Assembly: GCF_014466955.1 (NCBI RefSeq)
Contig: NZ_AP023396.1
Span: forward strand, 7,440,001-7,504,000
Length of the DNA: 64,000 bases
Direction of reading: 5' to 3'
DNA from: Nocardia wallacei
Lineage (GTDB): Bacteria; Actinomycetota; Actinomycetes; Mycobacteriales; Mycobacteriaceae
The notes under the pieces are model-generated. The model saw only the letters and a program-made list of their open reading frames with translations, ran no database searches and had not been told where the DNA came from. Below, in pieces: positions 22,350 through 56,323 of the stretch. Each line of letters opens with the position of its first letter. Position 1 is the stretch's first letter. The position numbers were made by a program, and so were the translations under genes.

Positions 22350-22432
22350 CACCACATGGTTCGCTGCGGGGGCGCGCCGCGCAACCTGCCGCTGGTGAGG
22401 CGGGCTCGGGCGGGAGGCGACCGCGCTCGGGA

Positions 22433-23305
22433 TCACCCGGCGGGATCGATGTGCAGCAGCGCGTGCTTGTCCAGCCAGTGCGCCACCGCCGAACCGATGG
22501 CATGCGGCTGGTCCTCCGGGGCGTGATGCCCGGCCTGGCCTATCGCGGCGACTTCGGCGGACGCGAAAGTCGCCGCGGCCCAGTCGATGGCCTCCCCGGA
22601 ACCGAGGCCTACGCCGTTGTCCACAGCCATCAACAGCTTGGGGATTCCGGGCGAGTCCGCCATCCAGCGGCCGTAGTTCTCGATGATCGCGACGACATCG
22701 GCGGGCTCGCCGTCGAGCGGCAGCTCCCGCGGCCACACCAGCATCGCCAGCCGCGACCGCGGCGTCGGGTAGTAGCCCCGGTAGACGTCGTGCGCCGCGG
22801 GATCGAGGTTCCTGGTGGAGTGCGGCAGGTTGAATTCGATGAACATGTTGTCCTGCAACACCATTCGCTCGCCCTCGGGCGAACGGAAGCGGCGGAACAG
22901 GTCGGCGCCCAGCGGCGGCATCTCGGCCCAGCGCATCGGCCGCAGGAACGTCTCCACCACCGCGATCCCCCGTACTCGGTCCGGATGCCGTGCCGCCCAG
23001 TGCATCCCGAGCGCTCCGCCCCAGTCGTGGCCGACGATCACCACCCGATCCAGATCGAGGGCATCGAACCACGCATCGAGGTAGCGCGCGTGGTCGACGA
23101 AACGGTACCCGCTGTCGGGTTTTCCGGAGTCGCCCATGCCGATCAGGTCCGGCGCCAGCGCCCGGGTCCGATCGCTCACGTGCGGAATCACCGACCGCCA
23201 CAGATACGAGGAGGTCGGGTTGCCGTGCAGGAACACGACCGGGACCGCGCCGTCGCCGGTGTCGCGGTAGTGGATGAACGAGTCGATAACGTCGATGGTG
23301 GGCAT
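22433..23305 (-). CDS. Haloalkane dehalogenase (subfamily II-like)
   Basis: A 290-residue alpha/beta hydrolase. HGNPTSSYLW (residues 27-36) supplies the oxyanion hole and the halide-binding Asn29. Nucleophile Asp94 and halide-binding Trp95 lie in GHDWGG. The catalytic acid is probably Glu118 (VVETFLRPMRW), and the catalytic His is near residue 260 (AGHHAPEDQP). An acid after beta-6 rather than beta-7 is characteristic of HLD-II enzymes such as DhaA. These enzymes release halide from alkyl halides by an ester intermediate. The gene stands alone: its stop is 83 nt from the sigma-factor start, and upstream is a divergent MDR. Haloalcohol processing by that neighbour is possible but unproven. Confidence 0.85.
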   Translation of the reverse strand: MPTIDVIDSFIHYRDTGDGAVPVVFLHGNPTSSYLWRSVIPHVSDRTRALAPDLIGMGDSGKPDSGYRFVDHARYLDAWFDALDLDRVVIVGHDWGGALGMHWAARHPDRVRGIAVVETFLRPMRWAEMPPLGADLFRRFRSPEGERMVLQDNMFIEFNLPHSTRNLDPAAHDVYRGYYPTPRSRLAMLVWPRELPLDGEPADVVAIIENYGRWMADSPGIPKLLMAVDNGVGLGSGEAIDWAAATFASAEVAAIGQAGHHAPEDQPHAIGSAVAHWLDKHALLHIDPAG

Positions 23306-23514
23306 CGCCGGTGTCCTTCCGTGAGTTGCTTACATCCGGTTGGACACGGCTGCGCGGGCGCTGTGACAGCTCGATGCCGTGAGCTGGGTCACCGACGGGT
23401 CGGCCGCGCATCGTGGCGGGGCGGCCGCGATATCGCCGACTATCTGGTGGACGTCGTGATCCCGGAGTCGCGGACCCGGCAGTGGACCGAGGGTGACCGG
23501 GGTACCGTGCGGGT

Positions 23515-24675
23515 ATGAAGGCGGTCGTCTGTTCCGAAGGCAAGCTGGAGGTCGCGGATCTGGAGGGGCCGCGGCCCGGGCGGGGGCAGTTGCTGATCAA
23601 TGTGCTCCGGTGCGGGATCTGCGGCTCCGACCTGCACGCTCGGGTGCACTGCGACGATCTTGCCGACCTAGCCGCGACCACGGGTTACGACCACTTCATG
23701 CGATCGGACCAGCGGGTGGTGCTCGGACACGAATTCTGCGGGGAGGTCGTCGAATACGGCCCGGGCTGCCGCACACGGTGGCGGCCCGGCACCCGGGTGG
23801 TGGCGCTGCCCATCCTGCGAAACGGGCGCGAACCCCAGCTGACCGGCCTGTCGGTGCACGCGCCCGGCGGGTACGCCGAACAGGTCGTCGTGCAGGAGGC
23901 GATGACCTTCGCGGTGCCGAACGGGCTCTCACCCGATCATGCCGCGCTCACCGAACCCATGGCGGTGGCCTGGCACGCGGTGCGCAAGGGCCGGGTCGGC
24001 AAGGGGCAGACGGCGTTCGTGATCGGGTGCGGCCCGATCGGTCTCGCGGTCATCACCATGCTGCGGGCGGCGGGGGTGAAAACCATTGTCGGCAGCGACT
24101 TCTCACCGCGCCGCCGGGAGCTGGCGGTACGTTGCGGCGCGGATGTGGTGGTCGATCCCGGCACCGAATCGCCGTGGACCGCGGTACCGAAGAAGGGCCG
24201 CGTCACCGGCGTCACCGACGTGCTGAATCTCGGTTTCGACGCGATGGAGCGGCTGCGGCGCATCCCGAACCTGCCGTGGTGGTACGCATTCCGGCTGGCC
24301 CACACCCTGAACGCGGGTCCGGCCGGGCCGGTGGTGTTCGAATGCGTCGGCGTGCCGGGCATCATCGACCAGATCCTCACCGCCGCACCGCCGCTGACGC
24401 GGGTGGTGGTGGTAGGCGTCTGCATGGAGTCCGACCGGTTCCAACCGGCGATGGCCATCAACAAGGAGATCGAGCTCCGCTTCGCGTTCGGCTACGACCC
24501 CGGCGAATTCCGCGACACCCTGCACATGATCGCCGACGGCAAGGTCGACCCGGCCCCGCTGATCACCGGCACGGTCGGCCTGGACGGCGTGGACGACGCC
24601 TTCACCGCCCTCGGCAATCCCGAGCAGCACGCCAAGATCCTCATCGACCCGGCGAGCACCGCCACCGCCCCTTGA
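23515..24675 (+). CDS. Zinc-type alcohol dehydrogenase-like MDR protein
   Basis: A 386-residue medium-chain dehydrogenase. The catalytic-zinc residues appear as Cys in GICGSDLH, His-Glu in LGHEF and Glu in LTEPMAVAWHAVR. The Rossmann motif is IGCGPIGLAVI. The structural-zinc lobe lacks the usual four closely spaced Cys (only one Cys near residue 82), so it is a structural-zinc-free type. An unusual insertion near residues 235-265 (NLGFDAMERLRRIPNLPWWYAFRLAHTLNAG) separates two Rossmann strands. It is transcribed divergently from the haloalkane dehalogenase, 209 nt apart. Substrate unknown. Confidence 0.85.
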   Translation: MKAVVCSEGKLEVADLEGPRPGRGQLLINVLRCGICGSDLHARVHCDDLADLAATTGYDHFMRSDQRVVLGHEFCGEVVEYGPGCRTRWRPGTRVVALPILRNGREPQLTGLSVHAPGGYAEQVVVQEAMTFAVPNGLSPDHAALTEPMAVAWHAVRKGRVGKGQTAFVIGCGPIGLAVITMLRAAGVKTIVGSDFSPRRRELAVRCGADVVVDPGTESPWTAVPKKGRVTGVTDVLNLGFDAMERLRRIPNLPWWYAFRLAHTLNAGPAGPVVFECVGVPGIIDQILTAAPPLTRVVVVGVCMESDRFQPAMAINKEIELRFAFGYDPGEFRDTLHMIADGKVDPAPLITGTVGLDGVDDAFTALGNPEQHAKILIDPASTATAP

Positions 24676-24780: not shown

Positions 24781-26382
24781 TCAGCGCCCGGCATCGCGCT
24801 GCGTACGGATGCGCGGCAGTGGGTTCGTTTCGGGTGCGCCGAGCTGTTCGACCAGGCCCTCCGCGCTGCGCGCGCCGGTCTCGCAGGCGTTGGCGGTGGC
24901 GCGGTCGACGAGTGGATGGCGAGCTCTGGTGCGCCACTTGCGCACGGCGGCAAGGGCCGCGGCGCGCAGTTCGGACGGCGAGGCGGTGCCGGGCAGGCCC
25001 AGGCGGGTCGCGGCGGCGATGCCGGAACCGCCGATCAAACGGTGCAGTTCGGCGAGATCGTCAGCGGGCAGGGGGAATTCGTCGGTGCGCAGCCGTCCGA
25101 GCAACCGTAGTTCGGCGAATCCGTGGACATCGGCGAGCAGGGTGCGCACCCGCGGCAGCAGCCGGTCGGCGGCCGTTCCCGGGTAGCCGGTCAGGACACG
25201 GGCCAGTGCCGTCAGCGCCGAATGGGCCTGCAGTTGGTCGGCGCGCTCGGCGAACTGCACCGCCAGCACCGAACGCAGCTCGTCCAGCCCGCTGTGCCGG
25301 GTCAATTCCGCTGCGAGCGTGCCGGAGTCGCGCACGCCGAGCCGGATCAGCGTGACCGCCATGCGAATTCCGAACAGGCCGAAGCGCGCGGACAGATGGG
25401 CCCGCAGGTCCGGCTCGATCGGCAGCGGCAGGTCCGGGCGGGCGAAGCGATCCGCCGACAACAGTGCGGCATTCAACTCCGCCACCGGCGCCGCGGCCAG
25501 CGCCTCGAACGCGTCGTACTCACGCTGCCGCAGAGTGGCCGCGGCGAAGGCGAGCAGGCCCGCCACCGGAATCACGGCCTGGCACAATCCCGTTCGCTCC
25601 AGTTCTCCCGCGAACCGGTCGGCCACCTCGCGCGCGGAATGCAGTGCGTCGATGCCGCCCGCGCCGATCTCGTCGGCGCGCGAGACCACCCCGATCACGC
25701 CCAGCGGCCCGGTAACTCCCTGGCCGTCGACTCCTCGGCCGACAACTCCCCCCAATCTCTCGAGCAGGTCGAGATCCGCGGAATCCAGGCGGCGCATCAG
25801 GTAGACGACGGCGTCGGCGGCGGGCAGCGGATCATCGGCCGGGTCGCCCGGCGTCAGCAGCCGCGTCGTCCGCAGCGAGATGTCGCGCGACAACGAGGAC
25901 GTGCCGGGGGTGTCGATGATGGTGGTGCGTGCCAGCGCGCCGGAGGGCCAGTCCACCTCGAGGTGGTCCACCTCGTGCGGTCCGCCCGCATTCCAGCGCA
26001 GTGCCGACAGATCGAAGGTCAGGCCGTGTGCTCCCGGCAGTCCGCCCACGCCGGGCACCCGGCGGACCACCACGTCGGCGCGGGCGCCACCGGCGGCCAC
26101 CGCCGTCACCCGCGGCGTGGCGCCGTGCCGGTACCAGGTCACGGTGCGGGTGCACTCGGTGGCGTCGGTCGGTGCGATATCCTGCCCGGCCAGCGCGTTG
26201 AGCAGCGTCGACTTCCCGGCCTTGAGCTGACCCACCAGCGCCACGCGCAACGGCTGATCCAGCCGCCGCGCGCACTCGTCCAGCAGTTCGGCCGGGCGCG
26301 ACCGCGGGGCGAACGCCTGCGCCGCGGCCCCGATCAGCCGCCGCGTCTCCGGCACGATCCCCCCGGTGACCTCGAAACTCAC
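24781..26382 (-). CDS. iniC: IniC-like dynamin-family GTPase
   Basis: A 533-residue protein. G1 is GQLKAGKSTLLNALAG (about residues 51-66), the switch Thr is in ATECTRTVTWY, G3 is IIDTPGTSS, and G4 is VSRADEIG. The helical C-terminal part is rich in Ala/Leu/Arg. M. tuberculosis IniC is a similar dynamin-like protein, and iniBAC is induced by isoniazid, ethambutol and other envelope damage. Bacterial dynamin-like proteins remodel membranes; a role in maintaining plasma membrane integrity is inferred. It lies 30 nt downstream of iniA and is the third gene of the operon. The C-terminus has no clear membrane helix. Confidence 0.85.
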   Translation of the reverse strand: MSFEVTGGIVPETRRLIGAAAQAFAPRSRPAELLDECARRLDQPLRVALVGQLKAGKSTLLNALAGQDIAPTDATECTRTVTWYRHGATPRVTAVAAGGARADVVVRRVPGVGGLPGAHGLTFDLSALRWNAGGPHEVDHLEVDWPSGALARTTIIDTPGTSSLSRDISLRTTRLLTPGDPADDPLPAADAVVYLMRRLDSADLDLLERLGGVVGRGVDGQGVTGPLGVIGVVSRADEIGAGGIDALHSAREVADRFAGELERTGLCQAVIPVAGLLAFAAATLRQREYDAFEALAAAPVAELNAALLSADRFARPDLPLPIEPDLRAHLSARFGLFGIRMAVTLIRLGVRDSGTLAAELTRHSGLDELRSVLAVQFAERADQLQAHSALTALARVLTGYPGTAADRLLPRVRTLLADVHGFAELRLLGRLRTDEFPLPADDLAELHRLIGGSGIAAATRLGLPGTASPSELRAAALAAVRKWRTRARHPLVDRATANACETGARSAEGLVEQLGAPETNPLPRIRTQRDAGR

Positions 26383-26412
26383 GCGGCAACCGTACCGGAG
26401 CGGGCGTCCGGC

Positions 26413-28239
26413 CTAGCCGGCACCGGCGCCCGCGGGCGGCAGCATCGCGTCGGCATACCGGCGTAGTTGCGCGACGACGCGCAGTTGCCGTTCCAGCTCC
26501 GCACAGCGCTCGGCGCGACGGGCCGTCTCGACCCCGGCGGCATCCTGTGCGGCCTGCAGCGAATCGGAGAGCGAACGCAGGCTGCGGTCCGCGATGCCGG
26601 TGAAGTGGTCGCGCAGCAGCCGGTGGATGCGGTGCAGCCGGTCGCGGGACTGCTTGCTCGCCTCGAAGGCGACATCGTCGAGGTAGCGGCGCACCGCGGC
26701 CTTCGCCTCGGCCCGGCGCCGGGCCTGGCGCTCCCGCTTGTCGTCGCGGAAGGCTTTGCCGCCCAACAGCATTCCCGCGCCCAGCGACAGAGGATTGACC
26801 AGCGCCAGACCGGCGACGGTACCAGCCAGGCCCACCATCACCAGCCCGCCGTAGGAGCCGCGCAGGCCGACGAGCAGTTTGTGCCCGAGGCCCAGTTCCG
26901 GTTCCAGATCCGACAGCGCCACCCCCGCGCCGGGGTCGCCGGAGCCGGGATCGGGGCGGACGTGCGGCAGGTCGACGCCGCCGAACTCGGCGAAATGCTC
27001 GGCGACCCGTTCGGCCAGCCGGACGCCGCACCGGTGCGTCCACAGCAGGTTGTCGCCGATCGCCGTGTCGACGGTCGCATTCAGCCACGCCGCCATGCGG
27101 TCCCAGTGCCGACCGGGATCGTTCTCGTCGATCCACTCCTCGGCGGTGCGGGCGATGCCGCGCAATCGGCCGCGCAGGTCGTGGTCGATGTCGGCGGCCA
27201 GGTCGGTGACGCCGTCGCCGAGGGTCTGCTGCCAGGTGGCGGTGCGGCGCCGCAGTTCTTCGGCCTGTGCCTTGGCGGCGCGCAATTCGCCGATGGCGGC
27301 CTCGCCCCGCTCCGGATCGCGCAGGGCCACCAGTTCGCTGCCCAGCGCCAGGGCGAGATGTTCTGCGGCCGAAGCGATGTCGCGCGCCACGGTCTGGCCG
27401 GTGGCGGCGCGGCTGCGTGCGACCACCGCACGCAGAAAGTCGTACAGTGCGCCGAAGCCCGACTCGCGGCCGAGCTGTTCGTCGTGCAGTCGCAGGGCGT
27501 GGGTGCGCAGCAGCGCCGACACCGGCAGTACGGGCAGGTCCAGTCCGTGCCTGCGCAGGTGGGCCTGGTCGGCGTGGAAGACCTGCCGCCAATGCGGATA
27601 CAGGTCGAGCTTGGTCAGCACCAGCGCCACCGCCGGGCACAGCCGCTGCGCCTGCCGCAGGAACTCCACCTCCGGTTCGGTCAGTTCGGTCGACGCGTCG
27701 GACAGCAGCAGCACGGCGTCGGCCGTCGACGCCAGGCCGAGGGCACCGGCGGCTCCGGTCGCGCGGCCGCCGATGGCCGGGGTGTCGATCACCACGACGC
27801 CGTCGGCGAGCAGCGGGCTGGGCGCGCGGATCTCCAGCCGGGCGACCCGGCCGTGCGGGGAATGCGATGTGAGGGCGCGAGAGTCGTCGAGCTGCCACGG
27901 AATTCGCCGCTCGCCGTCCGCGTCGGCGACGACGAGTTCCGCGCCCGGTTGCGGGCCGTGCGCGAGGAGAACGGGCACCGTGGTGGTCGTGTCGTCGCCC
28001 ACCGGGCAGAGTTCGGCGTTCAGCAGCGCGTTGACGAAGCGGCTCTTGCCCTGGTTGCCGAGCCCGGCCACCACGATGCGCTGGCGCGGATCGCGCACCC
28101 GGTCGGCCAGCGCCCGCAGCCGGGTGACCAGATCACCGCGACCGGCCACCCGCGCGGCCGCGACGGTTTCGGCCAGCGCCGTGGACAGCGACAGTCCCGG
28201 CGTGGCGGGGGTGGGATCGGTTGCCACCACGGTCCTCAT
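26413..28239 (-). CDS. iniA: IniA-like dynamin-family GTPase
   Basis: A 608-residue dynamin-like GTPase. G1 is GLGNQGKSRFVNALL (about residues 60-74), G3 is VVIDTPAIGG and G4 is LVLTKLDLYPHW. Long helical bundles follow, with a hydrophobic paddle-like segment near residues 455-490 (GLVMVGLAGTVAGLALVNPLSLGAGMLLGG), matching the lipid-binding tip of mycobacterial IniA, and a basic stretch (DDKRERQARRRAEAK). IniA-type proteins bind and cut membranes and confer tolerance to cell-wall drugs. The ATG at 28239 has AGGGAA close upstream; a GTG at 28227 is possible. It lies between iniB (26-nt gap) and iniC. Confidence 0.87.
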   Translation of the reverse strand: MRTVVATDPTPATPGLSLSTALAETVAAARVAGRGDLVTRLRALADRVRDPRQRIVVAGLGNQGKSRFVNALLNAELCPVGDDTTTTVPVLLAHGPQPGAELVVADADGERRIPWQLDDSRALTSHSPHGRVARLEIRAPSPLLADGVVVIDTPAIGGRATGAAGALGLASTADAVLLLSDASTELTEPEVEFLRQAQRLCPAVALVLTKLDLYPHWRQVFHADQAHLRRHGLDLPVLPVSALLRTHALRLHDEQLGRESGFGALYDFLRAVVARSRAATGQTVARDIASAAEHLALALGSELVALRDPERGEAAIGELRAAKAQAEELRRRTATWQQTLGDGVTDLAADIDHDLRGRLRGIARTAEEWIDENDPGRHWDRMAAWLNATVDTAIGDNLLWTHRCGVRLAERVAEHFAEFGGVDLPHVRPDPGSGDPGAGVALSDLEPELGLGHKLLVGLRGSYGGLVMVGLAGTVAGLALVNPLSLGAGMLLGGKAFRDDKRERQARRRAEAKAAVRRYLDDVAFEASKQSRDRLHRIHRLLRDHFTGIADRSLRSLSDSLQAAQDAAGVETARRAERCAELERQLRVVAQLRRYADAMLPPAGAGAG

Positions 28240-28265
28240 TTCCCTTGTCGCTCCGGTCGTTCCGA

Positions 28266-30611
28266 TCAGTGCAGCAGCTCGCCGCCGATATCGCCGCCGA
28301 GGTGCGAATCGGCCGCCGCGGTGGACTCGGTCGCCCCGAACAGGCCCGCGGAACCGTGCCCGTCCGCCGTCCCGGCACCGATCCCACTCACCCCGGTATC
28401 ACCGAACGAGGTACCCACCCCGTTACCGAACGCCTGCGAGACATCTACCGCCGACCACGTTCCAGCCACCGAAGACCCACCGCCATCGGCATCGGTTCCC
28501 AACTCGCTAAGGCCATCAACCCCGGTGGCACCGCCGAGCGCACCACCCAACTCGGCACCGGACGCCGCCGCCCCCTCGAGCCCACCATTCAGCTCCGTCC
28601 CGGACGACGCCTCGAGCCCCGACGACAATCCACCCGTACCTGCCGCAATACCTTCGAGTCCGCCGGTCGACCCGGCCCCGGCACCATCGAACCCGGCACC
28701 CGCGGCGAACGACTCATCGAGACCGCCGGCGACTGTGCCCCCCGTACCCAATCCGAGCTCCAAACCGCTCGCGCCCGCTGCCCCGGCACCGAGCGCACCC
28801 GTGACCCCCGCGTCGACCGCACTCTCCAGCCCGGCACCGACTCCGGCTCCCGCAGCAGCGCCCCCGTCCAGCGACGTCCCGATTCCGCCGACCGCGTCGC
28901 CCACGCCCTGCCCGCCGACAGTCACCACGCTCGACGCAGCAGTCCCCAGACTTCCGGCAAGGCCCGCGGCCGCCTGCGACCCGCCATCGAGCGCATCCGA
29001 CATCCCTGCGGTAGTCGCACCGAGCGAGCCGGTGAGCCCGGCAGAAGCCGAATCCCCCAGGCCCAGGCCGAGTTCGGCGGCCGACAGAGCACCGTCCACA
29101 CTCCCCCCCAACCCGGTCTCCAATCCAGCGGCAACACCGCCACCCAGCCCTGCCCCCACCTCCGCAGCACCCGAAAGCCCCGCCCCCACCGCAGCACCCA
29201 AGTCCGTGCCAAGCCCCGTCACACCCGAAAGTCCCGCCCCCACTGCACCACTCAGTTCTGTACCGACCTCCCCCACAGCACCCAGACCGCTGGCGACTTC
29301 CGCCGCGCCGGAAATGCCCGCCCCCACCGCAGCACCCAGATCGGTGACGAGTTCCGCCGCACCCGAAAGAGCCGCTCCCCCAGCGGCACCCAAGTCTGCT
29401 CCGACCTCCGCCGCGCCCGAAAGGCCCGCCTCCACTGCAGCGCCCAGATCTGTACCGACCCCCGCCGCACCCGAAAGAGCCGCTCCCCCAGCGGCACCCA
29501 AGTCTGTGCCGACCCCCGCCGCACCCGAAAGGCCCGCCTCCACCGCAGCGCCCAGATCTGTACCGACCCCCGCCGCACCCGACAAACCAGCGTCCGCCAC
29601 AGCACCCAGATCGGTGACGAGTTCCGCCGCGCCCGAAAGAGCCGCTCCCGCAGCGGTACCCAAGTCTGTGCCGATCTCGGCCGCGCCCGACACACCCGCG
29701 GTCGCGCTCGACAAGCCTGCGGCCGCCAGGGTGCCCAGGTCCGTGGCGACTTCTGCCGCGCCCGACAATGCCGTGGTCAGGCCCGCTGTCAGGGCGGTGC
29801 TCGCCTGCGTGGCGGCGTCCACCACGGCATGCAGGTCCAGGTTCGCGATGGTCTCGGCACCGCTGGTCACCGTCGCGCCGAGATTTGTGGCGGCGTCGGT
29901 TACGGCGGACAGGCCCAGATCGAGGCCGGAGCCGACGGTCACGCCTGTCTCCGTGCCGAGCGCCGCGGCGGCACCCAGGACCGCCTCGGCGGCGGTCGCG
30001 GCGTTGACTGCCGCGCCCAGTCCCCCGTCCACCGCGCCACCGAGCCCCGCACCCACCGCAGTACCGAGGCCGACACCCGCGTCCACCACGCCACCGAGGG
30101 CCGCATCCACCGCACCGCCCAGGCCCGCGCCCACGGCACCACCCGCGCCGACAGCACCGCCGAGCCCCAGGTCCACAGCACCACCGGCACCGGCCGCACC
30201 ACCCAGGCCCACGTCCACAGCACCGCCCGCACCGGCCGCACCACCGAGTCCCGCATCCACGGCACCACCCACACCGGCACCCACGGAACCGCCCAGGCCC
30301 GCATCCACCGCAGCGCCCGCACCGGCGCCGACCGCACCGCCGAGGCCCACGCCCGCGGCACCACCGGCACCGGCCGCACCGCCCAGTCCGCCCGCGCCGC
30401 AGCCGGCGGCGACGATTGCGGAGAGTTGAGAACCGCCCGCGACCAGGGCCGACTCGGCCACCATGGGTGCGACGGCGGCGATGTCCTCGGGGGTCACCGC
30501 CTGCAGGCCGGCTGCGGCCAAAGCTTGGGCGGGGTTGGCACAGTAGCCGACCGCGGCCTCGTGGTCGCGCAGCAGGCTGAGGATGAATTCGAGAATCGCG
30601 TTCGGGCTCAT
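28266..30611 (-). CDS. iniB: IniB-like Ala/Gly-rich protein with N-terminal IniB domain
   Basis: A 781-residue protein. Residues 1-62 form the IniB N-terminal domain (MSPNAILEFILSLLRDHEAAVGYCANP ... LQAVTPEDIAAVAPMV). The rest is low-complexity, Ala/Gly/Leu/Val/Asp-rich. First come Gly-zipper-like units (LGGAVGAG), then about ten ~18-residue units (LSGAAEVGTDLGAAVGAG), then a more irregular Gly/Ser tail ending in LGGDIGGELLH. It has no signal peptide and no catalytic motif; M. tuberculosis IniB is also Gly-rich, but shorter. It is the first gene of the iniBAC operon, driven from the palindrome-rich region at 30612-30894. The role is unknown, possibly as a scaffold or envelope filler. Confidence 0.85.
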   Translation of the reverse strand: MSPNAILEFILSLLRDHEAAVGYCANPAQALAAAGLQAVTPEDIAAVAPMVAESALVAGGSQLSAIVAAGCGAGGLGGAAGAGGAAGVGLGGAVGAGAGAAVDAGLGGSVGAGVGGAVDAGLGGAAGAGGAVDVGLGGAAGAGGAVDLGLGGAVGAGGAVGAGLGGAVDAALGGVVDAGVGLGTAVGAGLGGAVDGGLGAAVNAATAAEAVLGAAAALGTETGVTVGSGLDLGLSAVTDAATNLGATVTSGAETIANLDLHAVVDAATQASTALTAGLTTALSGAAEVATDLGTLAAAGLSSATAGVSGAAEIGTDLGTAAGAALSGAAELVTDLGAVADAGLSGAAGVGTDLGAAVEAGLSGAAGVGTDLGAAGGAALSGAAGVGTDLGAAVEAGLSGAAEVGADLGAAGGAALSGAAELVTDLGAAVGAGISGAAEVASGLGAVGEVGTELSGAVGAGLSGVTGLGTDLGAAVGAGLSGAAEVGAGLGGGVAAGLETGLGGSVDGALSAAELGLGLGDSASAGLTGSLGATTAGMSDALDGGSQAAAGLAGSLGTAASSVVTVGGQGVGDAVGGIGTSLDGGAAAGAGVGAGLESAVDAGVTGALGAGAAGASGLELGLGTGGTVAGGLDESFAAGAGFDGAGAGSTGGLEGIAAGTGGLSSGLEASSGTELNGGLEGAAASGAELGGALGGATGVDGLSELGTDADGGGSSVAGTWSAVDVSQAFGNGVGTSFGDTGVSGIGAGTADGHGSAGLFGATESTAAADSHLGGDIGGELLH
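29150..29765. repeat. ~54-bp imperfect tandem repeats in iniB
   Basis: About ten units of 54 nt encode LSGAA-(E/G)-V-(G/A)-TDLGAA-(V/G)-(G/E)-A-(G/A). Two unit subtypes (ending AVEAG or AGGAA) alternate between 29350 and 29600, some almost identical at DNA level, which points to recent duplication by recombination or slippage. A few units are extended by 6-24 nt. Confidence 0.85.
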
Positions 30612-30693
30612 GGCGGGTCGTCTCCAGGATCAGCGGACCGGTAGCGGTCCGTGGCAGTCGAATTGCTTTTCACGCTAGGAACCCCCGCCGTTT

Positions 30694-30706
30694 CCCCGTA
30701 ACGGGG
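30694..30706. promoter_or_regulatory. Palindrome in the iniB promoter region
   Basis: CCCCGT-A-ACGGGG is a perfect 13-nt inverted repeat 83 nt upstream of the iniB start. The flanking TTT on the left gives TTTCCCCGTA (30691-30700), which is repeated exactly at 30765-30774. It is a probable operator for the adjacent LuxR-type regulator or another factor controlling iniB and the divergent Hsp70-like gene. Confidence 0.6.
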
Positions 30707-30757
30707 TGAAACCCCCTTGTCCACAGCGGGTTCGCGATGGGGGCCGTCGCCGCATTA

Positions 30758-30771
30758 GGGGAAATTTCCCC
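30758..30771. promoter_or_regulatory. Perfect 14-bp palindrome between iniB and the Hsp70-like gene
   Basis: GGGGAAATTTCCCC is fully self-complementary and sits near the middle of the 283-nt divergent region (30612-30894). It overlaps the second copy of TTTCCCCGTA. The A/T-rich centre flanked by G/C runs is unusual for this GC-rich chromosome. The rest of the divergent region holds C-runs and a GGGTGAAG segment but no clear -10/-35 pair. Confidence 0.65.
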
Positions 30772-30894
30772 GTACCTGCTCCGGGTGAAGTAACAACGAA
30801 CCCCCAGCAACCGACAGAGGGGGCAGGTCGCGACGACCACGCAACTTTTCGAACACACGTTTCACCTTGCGTTTCGAACGACAGGGGTTATCGA

Positions 30895-32589
30895 ATGACT
30901 CAGGGCCTGACGCTCGGCATCACCGTCGGCTCGTCGAACACGGTCGCCGTGACGACGATTGGTGGTCACGGCGCCAACGGCGACTTCGCTGTCCGCATTT
31001 CGCCCACCGCGCCGCCGGGGGTTTCCGAGGGCTTCCTGGCCCGGGTGGGCGACCCGGTGAACATGCTGACCGGTGACGGCTCCCCGATCGCCGCGGCGGA
31101 TCTGGTCGCCGGCGTGATCGGTGCGGCAATCGACGACAGCACCCCCGAGCACACCGTGGCAGCCGTGCCCACCTGGTGGAAACCGCACGTCGTGGCGGCA
31201 CAGCGGGCCGCTCTGGACGCCGCCGGGCGAGATGAGGTGACGCTCGTTCCCGAGGCGGTGGCGGCGTCGCGGCGACTGGCCGACGAGCCCGGCCGTCCCG
31301 CCGCGAGCCCGGTCGTCGTCTACGACCTGGGCACTACCGGCCTCACCGTCTCGGTAGTCGGCGCCGCGGGGCTGCTGGGCGAGCCGGCGCGGTCCGAGGA
31401 GGTGTCGGGCAGCGAATTCGATCTCCTGGTGTTGCGTTATGTCCTGGCAAACGCGCTGGGCGATAACGATCTCGACCCGTTCGATCCGGTGGTCGAAACG
31501 GAATTGTCGGCCCTGCGCCACCGCTGCCGGAATGCGAAAGAAGAACTGTCAAAAATTACCGCGACGGCGGTCCCGGTTCAGTTCCCCGGGTTGCCCGGCC
31601 GTGATATCCGACTGGTCCGCGCCGATGTCGAAGAGTTGTTCCGCGAACCGCTGCGTGACTCCCTGGCCCTGGTGCACGAGGCGCTGGCGCGCGCGGGCGG
31701 CACGGCGGGCCGAATCCTCCTGACCGGCGGCGGCGCGGCGATTCCGCTGCTCACCGAGTTGCTCTCCACCGAGTTCGGTCTTCCGGTCGGCACCGTCGCC
31801 GAACCCGCGCACACCGCCGCGCACGGGGCCGCTTTGCTGGCCGCGGACCTGCTCGCGGAGTCGGTGCAAACAGATGTCGCACCGGTGATCGCGGCCGCGC
31901 CCACCGAACCCGTTGCGGCGCAGGAGGAGTACCTACCTCCCGCGCCCCGATTCGTACGAACCACCGCCGTCTCACCACTACCGGAACTGCCGGTCGAGCC
32001 CGTCCGCGGCGGACGCTTCAGCACTTGGCAGCGCGTGGCCCTGATCGGTGGCGCGGCGGCAGCCGTCGCCGTACTGGCCACGGGCACGCTGACACTGGGC
32101 ACCGCGGCGTTCGACTCCCCCTCTGCCACCACATCCACCCCGGCCTCGGGCACGAAGTCGCCGACGGCAGCGAACGACTCCGGCGTCGCTCCGGCCGCCG
32201 AAACCGGTACAGCCCGATCGGACGGGTCCGCCGCCGTCGTACCGGTGGCCGCATCCCCCGGCTCCCCGGCCACCCCGGGCTCCCCCGCCACACCCGGCTC
32301 TCCGGCCACACCCGGCTCCCCAGCCGCGCCCGGCTCGGCGGCCGCCCCCGCAGCACCCGCCGCGAACCCGGACCCGGCTCCGGCCGGAAGTCCCGCGGCA
32401 CCCGCGCCCGCCCCGGCTTACCCTGCGCCACAACCTGTTCCGGGCACGCCGACGCCGGTGCCAGCTCCCACGCTGCCGCAGCCGGGCGGGGTCGGCAGCA
32501 CGCTGGGCGATGCCCTCGATCAGACCGGAGACGCCGTCGGCACGGTGCTGGACGCACCGGGCCGGATAATCGAACGCACAGGTGGTTAG
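30895..32589 (+). CDS. Membrane-anchored Hsp70-family ATPase with Pro-rich exported tail
   Basis: A 564-residue protein. The N-terminal actin/Hsp70 ATPase fold (residues 1-325) has phosphate-1 LGITVGSSNTVAV, phosphate-2 VVYDLGTTGLTVSVV and adenosine motif ILLTGGGAAIPLLTELL. No DnaK-type substrate domain follows. Instead there is a cytosolic linker, one membrane helix (about 383-405, RVALIGGAAAAVAVLATGTLTLG) and an exported ~160-residue tail rich in Ala, Pro and Ser with PGSPAT repeats. The ATG at 30895 is preceded by AGGGG. It is divergent from iniB and 5 nt upstream of the LuxR/ATPase gene, so probably co-transcribed with it. Inferred role: ATP-dependent envelope stress sensing or scaffolding. 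Confidence 0.83.
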   Translation: MTQGLTLGITVGSSNTVAVTTIGGHGANGDFAVRISPTAPPGVSEGFLARVGDPVNMLTGDGSPIAAADLVAGVIGAAIDDSTPEHTVAAVPTWWKPHVVAAQRAALDAAGRDEVTLVPEAVAASRRLADEPGRPAASPVVVYDLGTTGLTVSVVGAAGLLGEPARSEEVSGSEFDLLVLRYVLANALGDNDLDPFDPVVETELSALRHRCRNAKEELSKITATAVPVQFPGLPGRDIRLVRADVEELFREPLRDSLALVHEALARAGGTAGRILLTGGGAAIPLLTELLSTEFGLPVGTVAEPAHTAAHGAALLAADLLAESVQTDVAPVIAAAPTEPVAAQEEYLPPAPRFVRTTAVSPLPELPVEPVRGGRFSTWQRVALIGGAAAAVAVLATGTLTLGTAAFDSPSATTSTPASGTKSPTAANDSGVAPAAETGTARSDGSAAVVPVAASPGSPATPGSPATPGSPATPGSPAAPGSAAAPAAPAANPDPAPAGSPAAPAPAPAYPAPQPVPGTPTPVPAPTLPQPGGVGSTLGDALDQTGDAVGTVLDAPGRIIERTGG

Positions 32590-32594
32590 CTTCG

Positions 32595-35582
32595 GTGACA
32601 AGCACTACAGCCATCGCGCACGAGTCACTCCCCGGCGTGCGAGAGATGTTCCGCGAGTTGGACTCCGCCGGTTCGGAGCCGCTGGTCTTCCTGGTCCGCG
32701 GACGCTCCGGCACGGGCAAGTCGACGCTGCTGGCCGCGCTCCGCAACCGCCTGCGCGGCCGCGGCATCGTCGCCTGCGACACCGTCTCCGAGGCCACCGG
32801 CGGCACCGGCCCCCGCCCGGCGCTGGTGGTCGACGACGCCCATACCCTCGAACCCAGCGAACTGGTGAAACTGTGCGCGGCCGTCGAATCGGGCTGCTGC
32901 ACAATGGTTATCGCCACCCGGCCGCGTCCGCACGATCCGGCGCTGCGCGCCTTCACCGACGCGGTGTCGCGCCGGGGCCGCGTGGTCGATCTGCGCCCGC
33001 TCGGCGTTTCCGACATCGCGCCGTTCGCAAGGGAATTGGGCATGATGGTGCCCCGGCCGGTGGCCCAGCACATCCACGGCCGGACCGCCGGTATCCACGG
33101 GGGCGTGGTGGCGGCGTTGTCGGCGGCCTGCGCCACGCGGCTCGACAGCGGCATGGGCGCGGTGGACGCGGCCGTAACAGCCTGGGCTCGAACACTTCTC
33201 GACGACACCGAGCCGCAGCTGCTGGACGCGTTCGTCATCGCCGCGACCGGTACCGGCCTGGATCCGGCCGAACTCACCGAGGTGCTGGACATCACCGACA
33301 CCGCCGCCCTGGACCTCATCGATCGAGCCCGCGCCAGCGCGCTGGTGACCGACGCGGACCTGCTGCTCGCCCTCGCCGTCGCCCCGCTGCGCACACTGGT
33401 GGGCGATCGCCGCTTCCTGACGGTGCAGCGCCGGCTACTGCAGGCACGGCTGGACGCCGGGTTGCTGCGCGACCACACCGCGCTGCTGCTCGCGGAGTCC
33501 GGCGTGCGCGACGCCAGATTGGCCGAATTCCTCTGCACCGCCGCGGAAACCGCCGGAACGGAGACGGTCCGCTATTACTCGGCGGCAGCGGCCAGCGGCA
33601 CCGGGACCGGTTGGCGGCCCGCGCCGGCGATGAAGTTGCGCTGGGCCGAAGCCGCCGCCCGCCTCGGCAGTACCGATATCGCCCTGCGGCTGGCCGAGCC
33701 GATGCTGGACCGTTCCGACGGCCCGCCCGCCGAACTCGCCGCGGCTGTCCGCGTCTGCGCGAGCGTGTGGACCCGGCGCGGCCTGACCGACCGCGCCGCC
33801 GACCTTTACTCGTGGCTCGGCCCCGAACGAATCGGCACCGACTGGGCGGTCGGGGCAACCGTGATGTACCTGGCAGGCGACATCGACACGGCCGCGGCCA
33901 TGTCCGCCTCCGCGACCCGGTGGCCCCCCACCCGCACCACCGCCCGCGCCGCCCTGATCGCCACCGCCCTGTCCCGCTCCCTCGGCCTGACGGACGCCAC
34001 CGCAATCGACACCACGAGCGCGAAAGACCTTTCGCCGGAACGGGTATCAGCACCAGCCACCGACACCACAACCCCAACCGGCCGACCGAGGGAAGGGCTG
34101 TCGGCACTCGCCACCAACAGCGCGTCGGTTCCCGGCACCGGTGGACGGCCGGAAGGGGCGCCCGCACCCACCGCCGACAGCGCGACCACAACCGGCGCCG
34201 CGCGAGCGCGGGAAGGAAAGTTCGCGGACGCCTTCGGCAGCGGCCGGGCGCCGGCGGGTGTATCGCCCGCCAACGAGGCGAACGCACCCCGCCAACGGCG
34301 CGATGGAGCATCGGCAACCTCGACCGGCAGTGCGCCCGCCCGCGGACGACCGCTCGAAGGGACACCGGCACTCGCCGTCGGCGGCACGCCCGCCCCCGGC
34401 CGCACCGCGTCCCTCGCGGCGGCCTCCGCTCTGATTCAGGCGGCGCGTACGGAACTGTCGGCCGCCGATCCCGAGTTGCTGCCGTGCACGGCGGTGTCGA
34501 TCGCCACACTGCTGTGCCTGAGTATGGGTGAGCCGCGGCGGGCCGCGGACGCTCTGCACGGGGCCACGACCGCGCCGCTGCCGGTGGGCGACACCGATCC
34601 GGGGGCCGAGGTGGCGGCCCAGGATCAGCATCTGATCGTGCTGTCCGCGTGGACGTCGATGCTGGGCGGCGACGAGCAGTCGGCCGCGCGACTCGCGGGG
34701 GCGTTGGACGTCGACCGGCTGTGCGAACGCGATCGGCTGCTCGCGCACGGTGTGCTGGTCGGCCTGGCCCGGCGCGGCGGCGACCACACCGCCTTGACAC
34801 TGGCCTGGCAGGCGGCGCATCCGCTGTTCGACGAGATCGGCGTCGACCTGCTGGCACTGCTGCCGATCGGCGAGCTGTGGCTGGCCGGGATCCGGTTGCA
34901 GGACGAGAGCCGGGTGGCGGCGCTGGTGGACGGGGCGGTAAAGCTGTTGCACCGCTTGGGCAATCCGCCCGCCTGGGCGAACGCCTTCCACTGGTACGCG
35001 ATCCAGGCCGCCATCGCCCGCGAGCGTCCCGACGAATTGCTGCCGCACGCACAGCAATTGAAGGCCACGGCCCTGGCCGGCGATCCGCACGCGGCGGCGC
35101 TGGCCGACGCGGGCCGCACCTGGGTGCTGACCCTGCGTGGATCGGTGGCGCCCGACGAGGTCGCGGGCGCGGTGCGCCGACTGGCCGCCATCGGCATGGT
35201 GTGGGACGCCGCCCGGCTGGCCAGCGAGGCCGCGCTGGCGGCCGACGACTCGGCCGTCGCGACCGCCCTGCTGAAGCTGGCCCGCACCGTGCGCACCGAA
35301 TCTCGCCCGCCACAGTTGCCGGTCCGCCCGCCCGAACCCGCCGCCGAGCCGCGCCCCGAACCCGCGCCGCGCAGTGACGCCATTCTCAGCGAGCGCGAAC
35401 GCGAGGTCGCCGAACTGGTGCTACTGGGGTTGACGTACCGGGAAATCGGCGCTCGCCTGTACATCTCGGCGAAGACGGTGGAGCATCACGTCGCGCGGAT
35501 CCGGCGTCGGATCGGAGCCGGGTCCCGATCGGAGTTATTGTCGATGCTCCGCGCCATGGGCCACGGTTCGCTGCTCGTGTGA
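32595..35582 (+). CDS. Large LuxR-family transcriptional regulator with N-terminal ATPase (IniR-like candidate)
   Basis: A 995-residue regulator. An N-terminal STAND/AAA-like ATPase has Walker A GRSGTGKST (residues 36-44) and Walker B ALVVDDAH (about 76-83). A helical middle region includes a low-complexity insert (about residues 475-600, Thr/Pro/Ala/Gly-rich with GRPREG, GRPEGAP and GRPLEGTP echoes). The C-terminal LuxR helix-turn-helix is ILSEREREVAELVLLGLTYREIGARLYISAKTVEHHVARIRRRI. In M. tuberculosis the iniBAC activator IniR (Rv0339c) is a large regulator encoded near iniB; this gene is its plausible counterpart by architecture and position. The GTG at 32595 is 5 nt after the Hsp70-like stop. 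The ligand is unknown. Confidence 0.82.
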   Translation: MTSTTAIAHESLPGVREMFRELDSAGSEPLVFLVRGRSGTGKSTLLAALRNRLRGRGIVACDTVSEATGGTGPRPALVVDDAHTLEPSELVKLCAAVESGCCTMVIATRPRPHDPALRAFTDAVSRRGRVVDLRPLGVSDIAPFARELGMMVPRPVAQHIHGRTAGIHGGVVAALSAACATRLDSGMGAVDAAVTAWARTLLDDTEPQLLDAFVIAATGTGLDPAELTEVLDITDTAALDLIDRARASALVTDADLLLALAVAPLRTLVGDRRFLTVQRRLLQARLDAGLLRDHTALLLAESGVRDARLAEFLCTAAETAGTETVRYYSAAAASGTGTGWRPAPAMKLRWAEAAARLGSTDIALRLAEPMLDRSDGPPAELAAAVRVCASVWTRRGLTDRAADLYSWLGPERIGTDWAVGATVMYLAGDIDTAAAMSASATRWPPTRTTARAALIATALSRSLGLTDATAIDTTSAKDLSPERVSAPATDTTTPTGRPREGLSALATNSASVPGTGGRPEGAPAPTADSATTTGAARAREGKFADAFGSGRAPAGVSPANEANAPRQRRDGASATSTGSAPARGRPLEGTPALAVGGTPAPGRTASLAAASALIQAARTELSAADPELLPCTAVSIATLLCLSMGEPRRAADALHGATTAPLPVGDTDPGAEVAAQDQHLIVLSAWTSMLGGDEQSAARLAGALDVDRLCERDRLLAHGVLVGLARRGGDHTALTLAWQAAHPLFDEIGVDLLALLPIGELWLAGIRLQDESRVAALVDGAVKLLHRLGNPPAWANAFHWYAIQAAIARERPDELLPHAQQLKATALAGDPHAAALADAGRTWVLTLRGSVAPDEVAGAVRRLAAIGMVWDAARLASEAALAADDSAVATALLKLARTVRTESRPPQLPVRPPEPAAEPRPEPAPRSDAILSEREREVAELVLLGLTYREIGARLYISAKTVEHHVARIRRRIGAGSRSELLSMLRAMGHGSLLV

Positions 35583-35626
35583 CATCGGTGCGGCACCGAA
35601 CGGGACACCGAAGCGAGGTAACGAGA

Positions 35627-36820
35627 ATGGCCACAGGGGTGGGCCTGCGCATCGCCGAGGACGAATGCGTCGCCGCTGTCGTCGCCGGCGTCGGCGAGGC
35701 GGGCGACGATTCGGCCGAACCCCACTACATCGTCCGCGACTCGGTGCTGCACATGTCCGACGACGGCGACGCCGCGCTCGGCGGTGAGCCGCCGTCGGGC
35801 CATTCCCATTCCATCACCGGATTTTTCGCGGCCGTGGGCGATCCGGCGGGCATCTCGGTCGACGACGGCGAGGCGTACCGCGCCGACGATCTGGTCGCGA
35901 CGGCCCTGTTCTGCCTGATCAACCTGGCCGCCGATCATCTGAACGGCCCGGCCGAGTTCTACGCCACCCATCCCGCCGACTGGCCCGCCCAGCAGGTGTC
36001 CGCGCTGCGCGACGCCCTCGACTATCTCGGCCTGCGGTCGGTGGTCCTGGTGAGCGAGGGCGACCTTCCCGATCCCGGGAAATCCGCGGACGGCACGGTC
36101 GACGGCCGCGGCTACGCCCGCGACGCCGCCCGCGCGGCGCTGGCCGCCGTGCTGGCCACCCCGGCGGGCAGCACGCCCCCGGACCCGACCCACTCCGAGA
36201 ACTCGCTGATCGTCACCGACGTGCTGCCCGCGCTGCCGTCGGACGACCCGACCATGCAGGCCTACTCGGCCGCCATGCCCGCGGCGTACTCCGCGGCCAC
36301 ACCGGCGGTGTACCCCGAGGCCGACCCGCCCGCCGAGACGGTGGCCGCGGCCGAGACGGCGAAACCCGAGACACCACAACCGGAGTCGCGGCGCAGTCGC
36401 CGCACCCTGGTCCTGATCGCCGCCGCGGCGGTATTCGGCCTGGTCCTGGGCGGCGTCGCGGCCGCGCTGCTCCTACGCGGCGACACCGAGACACCCGTCG
36501 CGCCCCTGCCGAACGCGCGCTCGGAACCCGCCCCGACGACCGTCGCCCCGCCACCCCCGCCGGTCTTCGTGGCCCCGCCGCCGAGCCTCGTCGAGGAGCC
36601 CGCGCCGGAACCCGAGACCTCCGAGGCGCCGCCCCCGCCGCCGCCGACCTCCGAGACGCCGCCGCCCCCGCCGCCCTCGACCACGACCTCACCGTCCCGT
36701 CCGACGCGCACCACACCGACCACGCCGCGCCGGACGCCGACCACCGTCATTCCGTTCATCCCGTACCCGACTTGGCTGCCGCCCCCGCAACCGCAGCGGC
36801 CGTACGCCGGGATTCCGTGA
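35627..36820 (+). CDS. Truncated Hsp70-like membrane protein with Pro-rich tail
   Basis: A 397-residue protein. Residues 1-180 resemble the first ATPase lobe of the upstream Hsp70-like protein: VGLRIAEDECVAAVV is a degenerate phosphate-1, and EFYATHPADWPAQQVSALRDALDYLGLRSVVLVSEGD parallels VAAVPTWWKPHVVAAQRAALDAAGRDEVTLVPEAV. The phosphate-2 and adenosine motifs are absent, so ATP binding is unlikely. A linker, a membrane helix (about 263-287) and an exported Pro/Thr/Glu tail of ~110 residues follow, ending in IPYPTWLPPPQPQRPYAGIP. It starts 44 nt after the regulator gene. It may be a non-catalytic partner of the Hsp70-like protein. Confidence 0.75.
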   Translation: MATGVGLRIAEDECVAAVVAGVGEAGDDSAEPHYIVRDSVLHMSDDGDAALGGEPPSGHSHSITGFFAAVGDPAGISVDDGEAYRADDLVATALFCLINLAADHLNGPAEFYATHPADWPAQQVSALRDALDYLGLRSVVLVSEGDLPDPGKSADGTVDGRGYARDAARAALAAVLATPAGSTPPDPTHSENSLIVTDVLPALPSDDPTMQAYSAAMPAAYSAATPAVYPEADPPAETVAAAETAKPETPQPESRRSRRTLVLIAAAAVFGLVLGGVAAALLLRGDTETPVAPLPNARSEPAPTTVAPPPPPVFVAPPPSLVEEPAPEPETSEAPPPPPPTSETPPPPPPSTTTSPSRPTRTTPTTPRRTPTTVIPFIPYPTWLPPPQPQRPYAGIP

Positions 36821-36991: not shown

Positions 36992-38359
36992 ATGCGCAAG
37001 TTGCCGGCGCGACGCGCCACGGTCAAAGCTGCCGCCGCCGCGTTCGTCTCGACCGTCCTCGTCGGACCGTGGCTTGGTACGTCACCCGCGTTAGCCGATC
37101 CGACGCCGGAGGTCGCGCAGCTGACGGCCGACCAGCTTCCTGCCGAGATGGCCCAGGCCATCAGCCGCGACCTGAAGATGACGCCCGCGGAATACCTGGA
37201 CCGTGCCGCCCGCGCCCAGCAATTGCGTCAGTACGCCCGCGACTTCCGTTCCGAACGCCCCGACGAGTTCGCCGGCGCCTGGCTGGCCGCGGACGGCAAA
37301 CCCGTCGTGGCGGTCACCTCGCTCGATGCCGCGCACACCGCCGAAACGGCCGGCTACCAGACCCGGCTCGCGCCGATCTCCGCCGACAACTTGGAGAGCT
37401 CGCTGGACCAGCTGGTCGGCTGGATCGGCGGCCTGCCCCGCGATATCGCCGCGGCCATCAATTCCGTCGCCGTCGACTTCCTCAACAGCCAGCTGGTCCT
37501 GAGCGTCGCCAACACCCCGGCCGGCCACCTGCTGAATCTCCCGACGCTGATCGCCAACATCAAGGTCGTGCTGTCCCCCAACGGCGGCGGCCCGGTCGAG
37601 CGGCGGCCGATGGGCGGCGACACCTACATCAGCGCCCCCACCTCGCTCGACGACGCGGCGCTGAAGACGGTGGACGTGTGCTCGTTCGGCTTCAACAGCA
37701 TCGATGCCGCCGGTAACGCGCTGAATATCAGTGCCGGACACTGCGATCCGAATCTCGACAAGGGCGACGGCCAGGCCGACGTGTACCTGCCCGATGTCCG
37801 CAACCTCAAGGCCAGCCCCAAGCTCGGCACCTTCGTGCGGGCGCACGTCGGTGGCAGCAGCGGCCTGGACTATTCGGTGATCCAGCTCAGTGAGCGCGCG
37901 GTGCGCGCGGGCATGGACCAGCCGTCGGTGCGCGGCGCGAACGGCACCACCATCAGTGTCACCGGCACCGCCGACCCGGTGATCGGCGCGCCGATCTGCA
38001 AGTCCGGCCAATCCTCCACATTCACCTGTGGTTTCGTGGTCGCCGATCGGGTCGAGACGCAATTGTTCACCGCGGAGGGGCAATCCAAGACCGTGCGCGG
38101 TTTCGCCAGTTCGGCCTGCACCCTCGGCGGTGACAGCGGCGGCGCGATCGTCACCGGCACGCTGGCGCTGGGCATCACCAGCGGATCGAACGCGGCCAAC
38201 GCCCCCGATTGCAACGAGGCCAATATCGGCCTCGCGCAATACGGTGGCACGGCGTCGCTGGGCATTCCGATCCGCGCGATCCTCGCCGATATCGACGCCG
38301 AATCCGGTGGCGGGGTCGGCTCGGGAATCGCGGTGCGTACCCGCCAGAACGCCGGGTGA
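36992..38359 (+). CDS. Secreted S1-family (chymotrypsin-like) serine peptidase
   Basis: A 455-residue preproprotein. The signal peptide (residues 1-36) ends in SPALADPT. A propeptide of ~170 residues (LPAEMAQAISRDLKMTPAEYLDRAARAQQL) resembles alpha-lytic/streptogrisin pro-domains. The mature domain has the catalytic His in ISAGHCD, Asp in GLDYSVIQ and Ser in LGGDSGGAIVTG. Paired Cys residues (VCSFG...GHC, ICKSG...FTCG) suggest disulfides. The ATG at 36992 follows GAAGGGA. The substrate is unknown. It forms a tandem pair with the next gene and lies 171 nt after the truncated Hsp70-like gene; the gap shows no recognisable operator. Confidence 0.88.
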   Translation: MRKLPARRATVKAAAAAFVSTVLVGPWLGTSPALADPTPEVAQLTADQLPAEMAQAISRDLKMTPAEYLDRAARAQQLRQYARDFRSERPDEFAGAWLAADGKPVVAVTSLDAAHTAETAGYQTRLAPISADNLESSLDQLVGWIGGLPRDIAAAINSVAVDFLNSQLVLSVANTPAGHLLNLPTLIANIKVVLSPNGGGPVERRPMGGDTYISAPTSLDDAALKTVDVCSFGFNSIDAAGNALNISAGHCDPNLDKGDGQADVYLPDVRNLKASPKLGTFVRAHVGGSSGLDYSVIQLSERAVRAGMDQPSVRGANGTTISVTGTADPVIGAPICKSGQSSTFTCGFVVADRVETQLFTAEGQSKTVRGFASSACTLGGDSGGAIVTGTLALGITSGSNAANAPDCNEANIGLAQYGGTASLGIPIRAILADIDAESGGGVGSGIAVRTRQNAG

Positions 38360-56133: not shown

Positions 56134-56323
56134 CTGCTGCCCATCTCGTTCCACTCCACGATGTGCGTGAAGCCGCCGCCTCTGATCTTCGAAACACGGA
56201 TGGCCGGCGCTGATTCGGACTCAGTATATTGCGGCGTTCACGGGCCCCGACGCGTTACGCGAACCGCCTCCTCCGATCCGTCGTGCACGCCGCGGGGTGT
56301 CGTCACTTTACCTGTTCGACACA

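Follow-up and report, generated by a model that had tools for sequence, protein, structure and literature searches.

An Hsp70-type protein, HspA, associated with the IniA/IniC dynamin pair in actinobacterial ini loci

In a 64,000-nt stretch of Nocardia wallacei DNA (contig NZ_AP023396.1, positions 7,440,001–7,504,000; hereafter the window), a leftward iniB-iniA-iniC operon, encoding IniB and the dynamin-like GTPases IniA and IniC, faces a rightward operon for an Hsp70-like protein (hereafter HspA), a STAND ATPase with a LuxR domain that resembles the regulator IniR, and a second, truncated Hsp70-like protein (HspB). This locus raises the question of whether the Hsp70-like proteins belong to the ini cell-envelope stress system and, if so, whether they serve the regulator or the dynamins. 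A first-pass annotation had proposed that they read the envelope state through exported Pro-rich tails and signal, directly or through the regulator, to the dynamins. The comparative analysis described here supported that proposal in part, and suggests that HspA is a largely overlooked component of the ini system, following the dynamins more than the regulator.

Conservation of HspA and its association with dynamins

The IniR model was run on 150 genomes of the order, and the 37 IniR loci gathered, including that of the window, were combined with 80 named loci (the best of 517) and scored with profiles of the six proteins. Removal of 16 loci with less than 1.8 kb of upstream sequence (one a duplicate) and of one further duplicate reduced the 117 loci to 100. 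An HspA-type gene was located directly upstream of IniR, with IniB also present, in 89 of these; five had IniB without an adjacent HspA, six had neither, and none had HspA without IniB. In 78 of the 89 loci, the IniR match begins −20 to +40 nt from the HspA stop, as in translationally coupled genes. Thus, the co-occurrence extends far beyond this genome, and the lack of co-occurrence elsewhere that would have counted against the first-pass annotation was not seen. Rhodococcus loci also carry an HspA-type gene, together with the candidate promoter box described below. Matches of about 130 bits to the HspA profile, often found beside iniC in Nocardia, were not counted as extra HspA copies because in the tree ten of them fall with DnaK.

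Among the genomes of the sampled genus inferred to be Mycobacterium, 69 of 98 gave an IniR match at E 1e-100 or better, and HspA was directly upstream of IniR in 46 of the 68 compared, as judged among the matches listed at about 243 bits or above (omitting G236, whose match contains a stop, and second pieces in G164 and G196). Of the 22 genomes without a listed upstream HspA, 16 were examined and G052 was already known, the remaining five being G164, G165, G183, G195 and G196. HspA was found at the iniC end in all nine examined loci with enough flanking sequence and likewise in G052 (locus L044), 10 in total; five loci (L244, L249, L252, L256 and L257) showed no HspA beside IniR on contigs that stop before iniC, and two (L258 and L259) were cut at IniR. 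All 56 Mycobacterium loci that could be judged therefore hold HspA, 46 beside IniR and 10 at the iniC end.

The partner that HspA follows was indicated by loci that have lost part of the system. All 36 ini-type IniA matches (>700 bits) have HspA in the locus, on the same contig in 35 cases, the remaining one (G067) being apparently split by a contig end. Among 55 IniR loci with at least 9.5 kb of upstream sequence, 46 contained both HspA and IniA, seven neither, two HspA only (L111 and L115, in which the IniB frame extends up to the limit of the sequence taken) and none IniA only. Moreover, in six Nocardia genomes that keep IniR without an adjacent HspA (G150–G155; loci L076, L077, L079, L107, L123 and L138), whole-genome searches revealed neither an ini-type IniA (best matches 509–524 bits, the class of a second dynamin) nor an ini-type HspA (best 131–138 bits, a class grouping with DnaK). 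An apparent loss of HspA in L068 (G010) was rejected, since HspA and iniBAC are present on another contig of that genome.

HspA-family genes were also found beside dynamins outside IniR loci. Of the 29 HspA matches of at least 215 bits away from known ini loci, 21 were covered by the 20 regions taken, the other eight being in the Mycobacterium-type genus. Three of the 20 adjoin iniBAC, IniR being either cut off or encoded at another place; in L167, which has neither IniR nor IniB, the HspA-like gene and a true dynamin pair (Dynamin_N, 80.6 and 50.1 bits) are divergently oriented, and in L169 a dynamin pair lies about 5 kb away. Twenty weaker HspA-family loci (188–213 bits), hand-chosen at about one per genome and intended as a control for dynamin neighbours, became a second finding, as nine of them adjoin an IniC-like and IniA-like pair. 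When 47 loci of this second type of dynamin pair were compared (38 centred on the dynamin and 9 on HspA, with a 55-bit G025 fragment excluded), 24, spanning nine families, had an HspA-family gene in the stretch taken, 20 of them within 2.5 kb, where a rough, hand-summed density of about 460 matches in 150 genomes, DnaK included, gives a background of about 1% per 20 kb.

Three further regions (L166, L168 and L172) were not counted as dynamin neighbours because the resemblance to IniC is confined to the C-terminal domain of that protein. This part, about 130 residues long, forms the C-terminus of a histidine-kinase open reading frame beside the HspA-like gene in L166, and in L168 and L172 it forms the C-terminus of two frames without a Pfam match, next to LuxR response regulators and HspA-like genes (40% identity over 131 residues, 2e-16, for L172). 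In the N. wallacei genome itself (G000), the region at about 5.952–5.969 Mb (L156 and L157) contains a second IniA-like dynamin (531 bits, at about 5.967 Mb) and two Hsp70-like genes at least about 10 kb from it, with ABC transporter genes between. In two relatives (L242 and L243) no HspA-like gene was present in the stretch taken, and this case was given no weight.

These results support the conclusion that HspA is tied more closely to the dynamins than to the regulator. The alternative is that IniR receives its signals through HspA and HspB, membrane Hsp70-like proteins that would keep the STAND regulator inactive and let it go upon envelope disturbance, in the manner of MalK, MalY and Aes acting on MalT. 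In line with this idea, HspA is tightly coupled to IniR in 89 of the 100 loci, and an HspB gene follows IniR in six of the seven long-flank loci in which neither HspA nor IniA was seen. Boot 2017 (PMC5760070) likewise contains a passage comparing IniR to MalT. However, HspA is at the iniC end, away from IniR, in the 10 Mycobacterium loci, members of its family are found with dynamins where IniR is absent, and IniR persists without HspA where the ini-type IniA is gone, so that we consider this alternative unlikely.

Several observations nevertheless weigh against a dedicated link between HspA and the dynamins. Nocardia sp. alder85J (L158) keeps HspA, IniB and a partial IniC-like frame, and no ini-type IniA was found in its genome. 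Because iniBAC and HspA are neighbours, their joint loss could be one deletion. In six of the 89 loci (L065–L067 and L069–L071), the upstream gene scores slightly higher with the HspB profile than with that of HspA. Of the 20 HspA-like loci outside IniR regions, 12 lack a neighbouring dynamin, every one of them from Mycobacterium, and 23 of the 47 second-type pairs show no HspA-family gene in the stretch taken; 17 of these 23 misses belong to one family (f14, with one positive in 18), and two are cut at a contig end. Finally, HspA may be dispensable for the ini response, because Boot 2017 (PMC5760070) describes induction of iniBAC by IniR in both M. marinum and M. tuberculosis and has a single sentence on a dnaK-like gene, beside iniR of M. 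smegmatis only.

Structural features of HspA and HspB

HspA matches the Hsp70 family (PF00012) over residues 85–322 only, and its AlphaFold2 model, compared with PDB structures, has the fold of the Hsp70 nucleotide-binding domain (NBD). The substrate-binding domain is missing: the PF00012 match ends at profile position 378 of 599, and past about residue 330 the model consists of one helix plus disorder. The positions of the Hsp70 catalytic residues, Lys70, Thr199 and Asp201 in DnaK numbering, are mostly altered. Thus, HspA of the window has DLGTTGLTVS at the place of DLGGGTFDVS in DnaK, and among 91 IniR-adjacent HspA proteins Thr199 is kept in 11 and Asp201 in 30; in the poorly aligned Lys70 column, Lys is not among the letters listed, which cover 89 of the 91. 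A transmembrane (TM)-like segment follows the domain in 77 of the 91 proteins, and 14 show none past the domain (one being borderline). The description of the Hsp70-like proteins as membrane proteins accordingly applies to most of them. Two of the proteins stop about 20 residues beyond the domain, so that the membrane anchor and Pro-rich tail are not universal and sensing through an exported tail cannot be general.

The missing substrate-binding domain also bears on the possibility that HspA is a chaperone-type helper keeping large, unstable proteins of the locus, such as IniR and IniC, folded. The Hsp70 fold would suit such a helper, and a passage of PMC6715688 reports IniC to be unstable on purification, but with nothing beyond one helix and disorder after the NBD we regard this explanation as improbable.

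HspB gave no Pfam match above the curated cut-off and scored 112 bits against the HspA profile, whose training set includes such proteins. The phosphate-2 and adenosine motifs were not seen in an alignment of 18 sequences (A6), all of which keep the first lobe and the reading frame, so that a decaying fragment was not favoured; HspB of the window is 95% identical to that of N. wallacei L118. HspB lacks half of the nucleotide pocket and stays with IniR after iniBAC loss, which makes a role as a partner of IniR itself more likely. The window encodes a third Hsp70-like protein (54754–56154, minus strand; 466 residues), with a hydrophobic segment and a Pro-rich tail, that pairs on the tree with another paralogue of its own genome through long branches; on visual inspection, the adjacent gene looks like one for UDP-glucose dehydrogenase.

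The regulator, a candidate operator and the layout of the locus

IniA and IniC both score above the Dynamin_N cut-off and hence contain a dynamin GTPase domain in a side-by-side pair; IniA gave 795 bits against the IniA profile A4, which contains it. The regulator scored 497.3 bits against the IniR equivalog model NF038181, in two pieces jointly covering positions 4–824 of 827, under the curated cut-off of 750, which only 8 of the 150 genomes of the order passed. Because of this score, its naming as IniR-type was based on position, divergent from an operon that begins with an IniB-domain protein, and on architecture, STAND ATPase and LuxR domain; both support the counterpart relationship proposed earlier and point to an IniR-type gene. 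Residues Gly39, Gly41, Lys42, Asp80 and Asp81 are invariant across 13 sequences (alignment A1). The nearest locus among the best 80 of 517 named ones is that of N. wallacei L118 (83% identity in the best segment). Variants of the regulator gene were also noticed: in N. cyriacigeorgica (L049 and L104) IniR is separated from the HspB-type gene by another IniR-like frame, which is shorter, and in three Nocardia loci without iniBAC (L122, L123 and L138) the IniR match lacks its middle (profile positions about 340–900 of 985), both ends and HspB being kept.

The control region between iniB and HspA contains a box common to most loci. In 93 loci with IniB opposite to IniR, the heptamer CCCCTAA occurs in the iniB sense in 85 iniB upstream regions and in the opposite sense in six, the expectation from single-base shuffles being 2.1; this seed defines the consensus WTCCCCTAAYG from 133 copies. 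Two or more copies are present in 44 of the 93 regions, 37 of the 108 intervals between box-like matches are 18 nt, and 139 of the 174 copies in 2.2 Mb of loci lie within the 39 kb of iniB upstream regions. M. simiae (L152) carries the box, whereas no copy was found in the six loci without HspA and IniB, nor in L076 and L079. In the window, the box is the sole CCCCTAA on either strand; a search of the own genome for paired boxes (CCCCTAA, 5–25 bases, CCCCTA) gave none, the species keeping one clear box. The alternative motif GGGGAAA was rejected as operator, being present in only 37 of the 93 loci. WTCCCCTAAYG is a candidate IniR operator. It stays a candidate because the section of Boot 2017 (PMC5760070) on binding, which reports chromatin immunoprecipitation of IniR upstream of iniBAC in M. 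tuberculosis, names no DNA motif; the site described for the HpoR repressor in the M. bovis BCG iniBAC promoter differs from it in sequence.

Re-examination of the whole arrangement confirmed all six genes with their strands and coordinates (Table 1) and the earlier gap lengths: 30 nt between IniC and IniA, 26 nt between IniA and IniB, 5 nt between HspA and IniR, and 44 nt between IniR and HspB. Start codons are the analyst's choice; for HspA, an in-frame upstream GTG at 30706 competes with the ATG at 30895, which fits the Hsp70 N-terminus.

Table 1 Features of the ini-type locus in the N. wallacei window
Feature	Position	Strand	Evidence or remark
IniC, dynamin-like GTPase, 533 residues	24781..26382	−	Dynamin_N 45.4 bits (cut-off 27); final gene of the iniBAC-type operon
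IniA, dynamin-like GTPase, 608 residues	26413..28239	−	Dynamin_N 43.9 bits
IniB, Gly/Ala-rich, IniB N-terminal domain, 781 residues	28266..30611	−	NF038175 (IniB_NTERM) 63.9 bits (cut-off 40)
Divergent iniB/HspA control region, 283 nt	30612..30894		Sequence; box conserved in relatives
Candidate IniR operator box TTCCCCTAATGCG, overlapping palindrome GGGGAAATTTCCCC	30751..30763	−	Fits WTCCCCTAAYG
HspA: Hsp70 NBD (about residues 1–330), helix/TM 378–395, Pro-rich tail	30895..32589	+	PF00012 58.2 bits; AlphaFold2 model; PDB comparison
IniR-type STAND ATPase, C-terminal LuxR DNA-binding domain, 995 residues	32595..35582	+	NF038181 497 bits; GerE 51.1 bits
HspB: first lobe of Hsp70-like domain, helix/TM 259–282, Pro-rich tail	35627..36820	+	Alignment A6; AlphaFold2 model

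The gene following HspB (36992–38359, plus strand) has a weak likeness to the Rv1815 serine proteinase family (18.4 bits; cut-off 175), and on the other side a 794-residue frame (21297–23681, minus strand) contains sigma-70 regions only from about residue 514, so its true start may be internal. A dnaK gene is also present in the window; in M. tuberculosis, presumably, dnaK likewise lies near iniBAC and lpqJ adjoins iniC.

A possible role for HspA and comparison with known systems

Upon envelope stress, IniR would bind the WTCCCCTAAYG boxes and switch on iniBAC, and perhaps also activate its own divergent operon. The nucleotide state of HspA could then determine whether IniA/IniC assembly is held or released at the membrane. 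Joint production with IniR may also let HspA signal dynamin occupancy back to the regulator, in the way that MalK acts on MalT. In the simplest reading, HspA acts together with the dynamins, and the IniR operon usually sets its level; feedback to the regulator is plausible. We put at about an even chance the view that the ini envelope-stress response has a dedicated component in HspA, an NBD without a substrate domain, mostly membrane-attached, mainly serving IniA/IniC and usually co-made with IniR. Least probable among the alternatives is that the genes are neighbours by descent only, an old order without a functional link, for although HspA follows host groups on the tree within the sampled groups and neighbouring genes easily co-delete, HspA remains in the locus at its other end in part of Mycobacterium, and its family separately adjoins second-type dynamin pairs in 24 genomes of nine families. 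More tentatively, and with the balance of our judgement somewhat against it, NBD-only, usually membrane-anchored Hsp70-type proteins might be general nucleotide-controlled partners of actinobacterial dynamin pairs, which in ini loci would couple dynamin state to a STAND regulator acting on the WTCCCCTAAYG operator in a closed loop of envelope sensing and repair.

What is already known comprises the ini system, the M. smegmatis dnaK-like sentence and the DnaK-domain neighbours of cyanobacterial dynamins. In the open-licence PMC literature, beyond Boot 2017, we found no Hsp70 in an ini locus, nothing on an iniB promoter with a direct repeat and nothing joining Hsp70-like proteins, dynamin-like proteins and actinobacteria; nor did we find there the conservation of HspA and HspB, the co-loss of HspA with the dynamins, the recurrence at second-type pairs or the box. 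The conserved partner and the candidate operator make damage sensing by IniR and the control of IniA/IniC directly testable.

Compared with bacterial DnaK, HspA shares the NBD fold and the adenosine motif but lacks the substrate-binding domain, has altered catalytic positions and mostly bears a TM-like segment. The E. coli MalT system is similar in that a STAND regulator recognizing direct-repeat sites is controlled by binding partners (MalK, MalY and Aes), a role that for HspA is putative; we know of no Hsp70-type partner of MalT. GTPase-centred conflict systems (PMC7159879) also include actinobacterial Hsp70 proteins, with or without a peptide-binding domain, near GTPase genes, but these GTPases are of the GAP1-N2 type and occur with GrpE/DnaJ, the word dynamin being absent from the main text. 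The mycobacterial iniBAC-IniR system, as presented in the relevant sections of PMC5760070, has the same IniB, IniA/IniC dynamin pair and divergent STAND-LuxR regulator, and is described without HspA and HspB. Also comparable is the 'chaperone group' of cyanobacterial bacterial dynamin-like proteins, in which a DnaK-domain protein is encoded downstream of the dynamin and for which PMC5827413 proposes a link between membrane remodelling and Hsp70; its account of the group mentions no IniB or STAND regulator, and the Hsp70-type protein here differs in being NBD-only and mostly membrane-anchored. The pairing of Hsp70 with dynamins, earlier noted in cyanobacteria, is thus extended to actinobacteria with broad comparative support.

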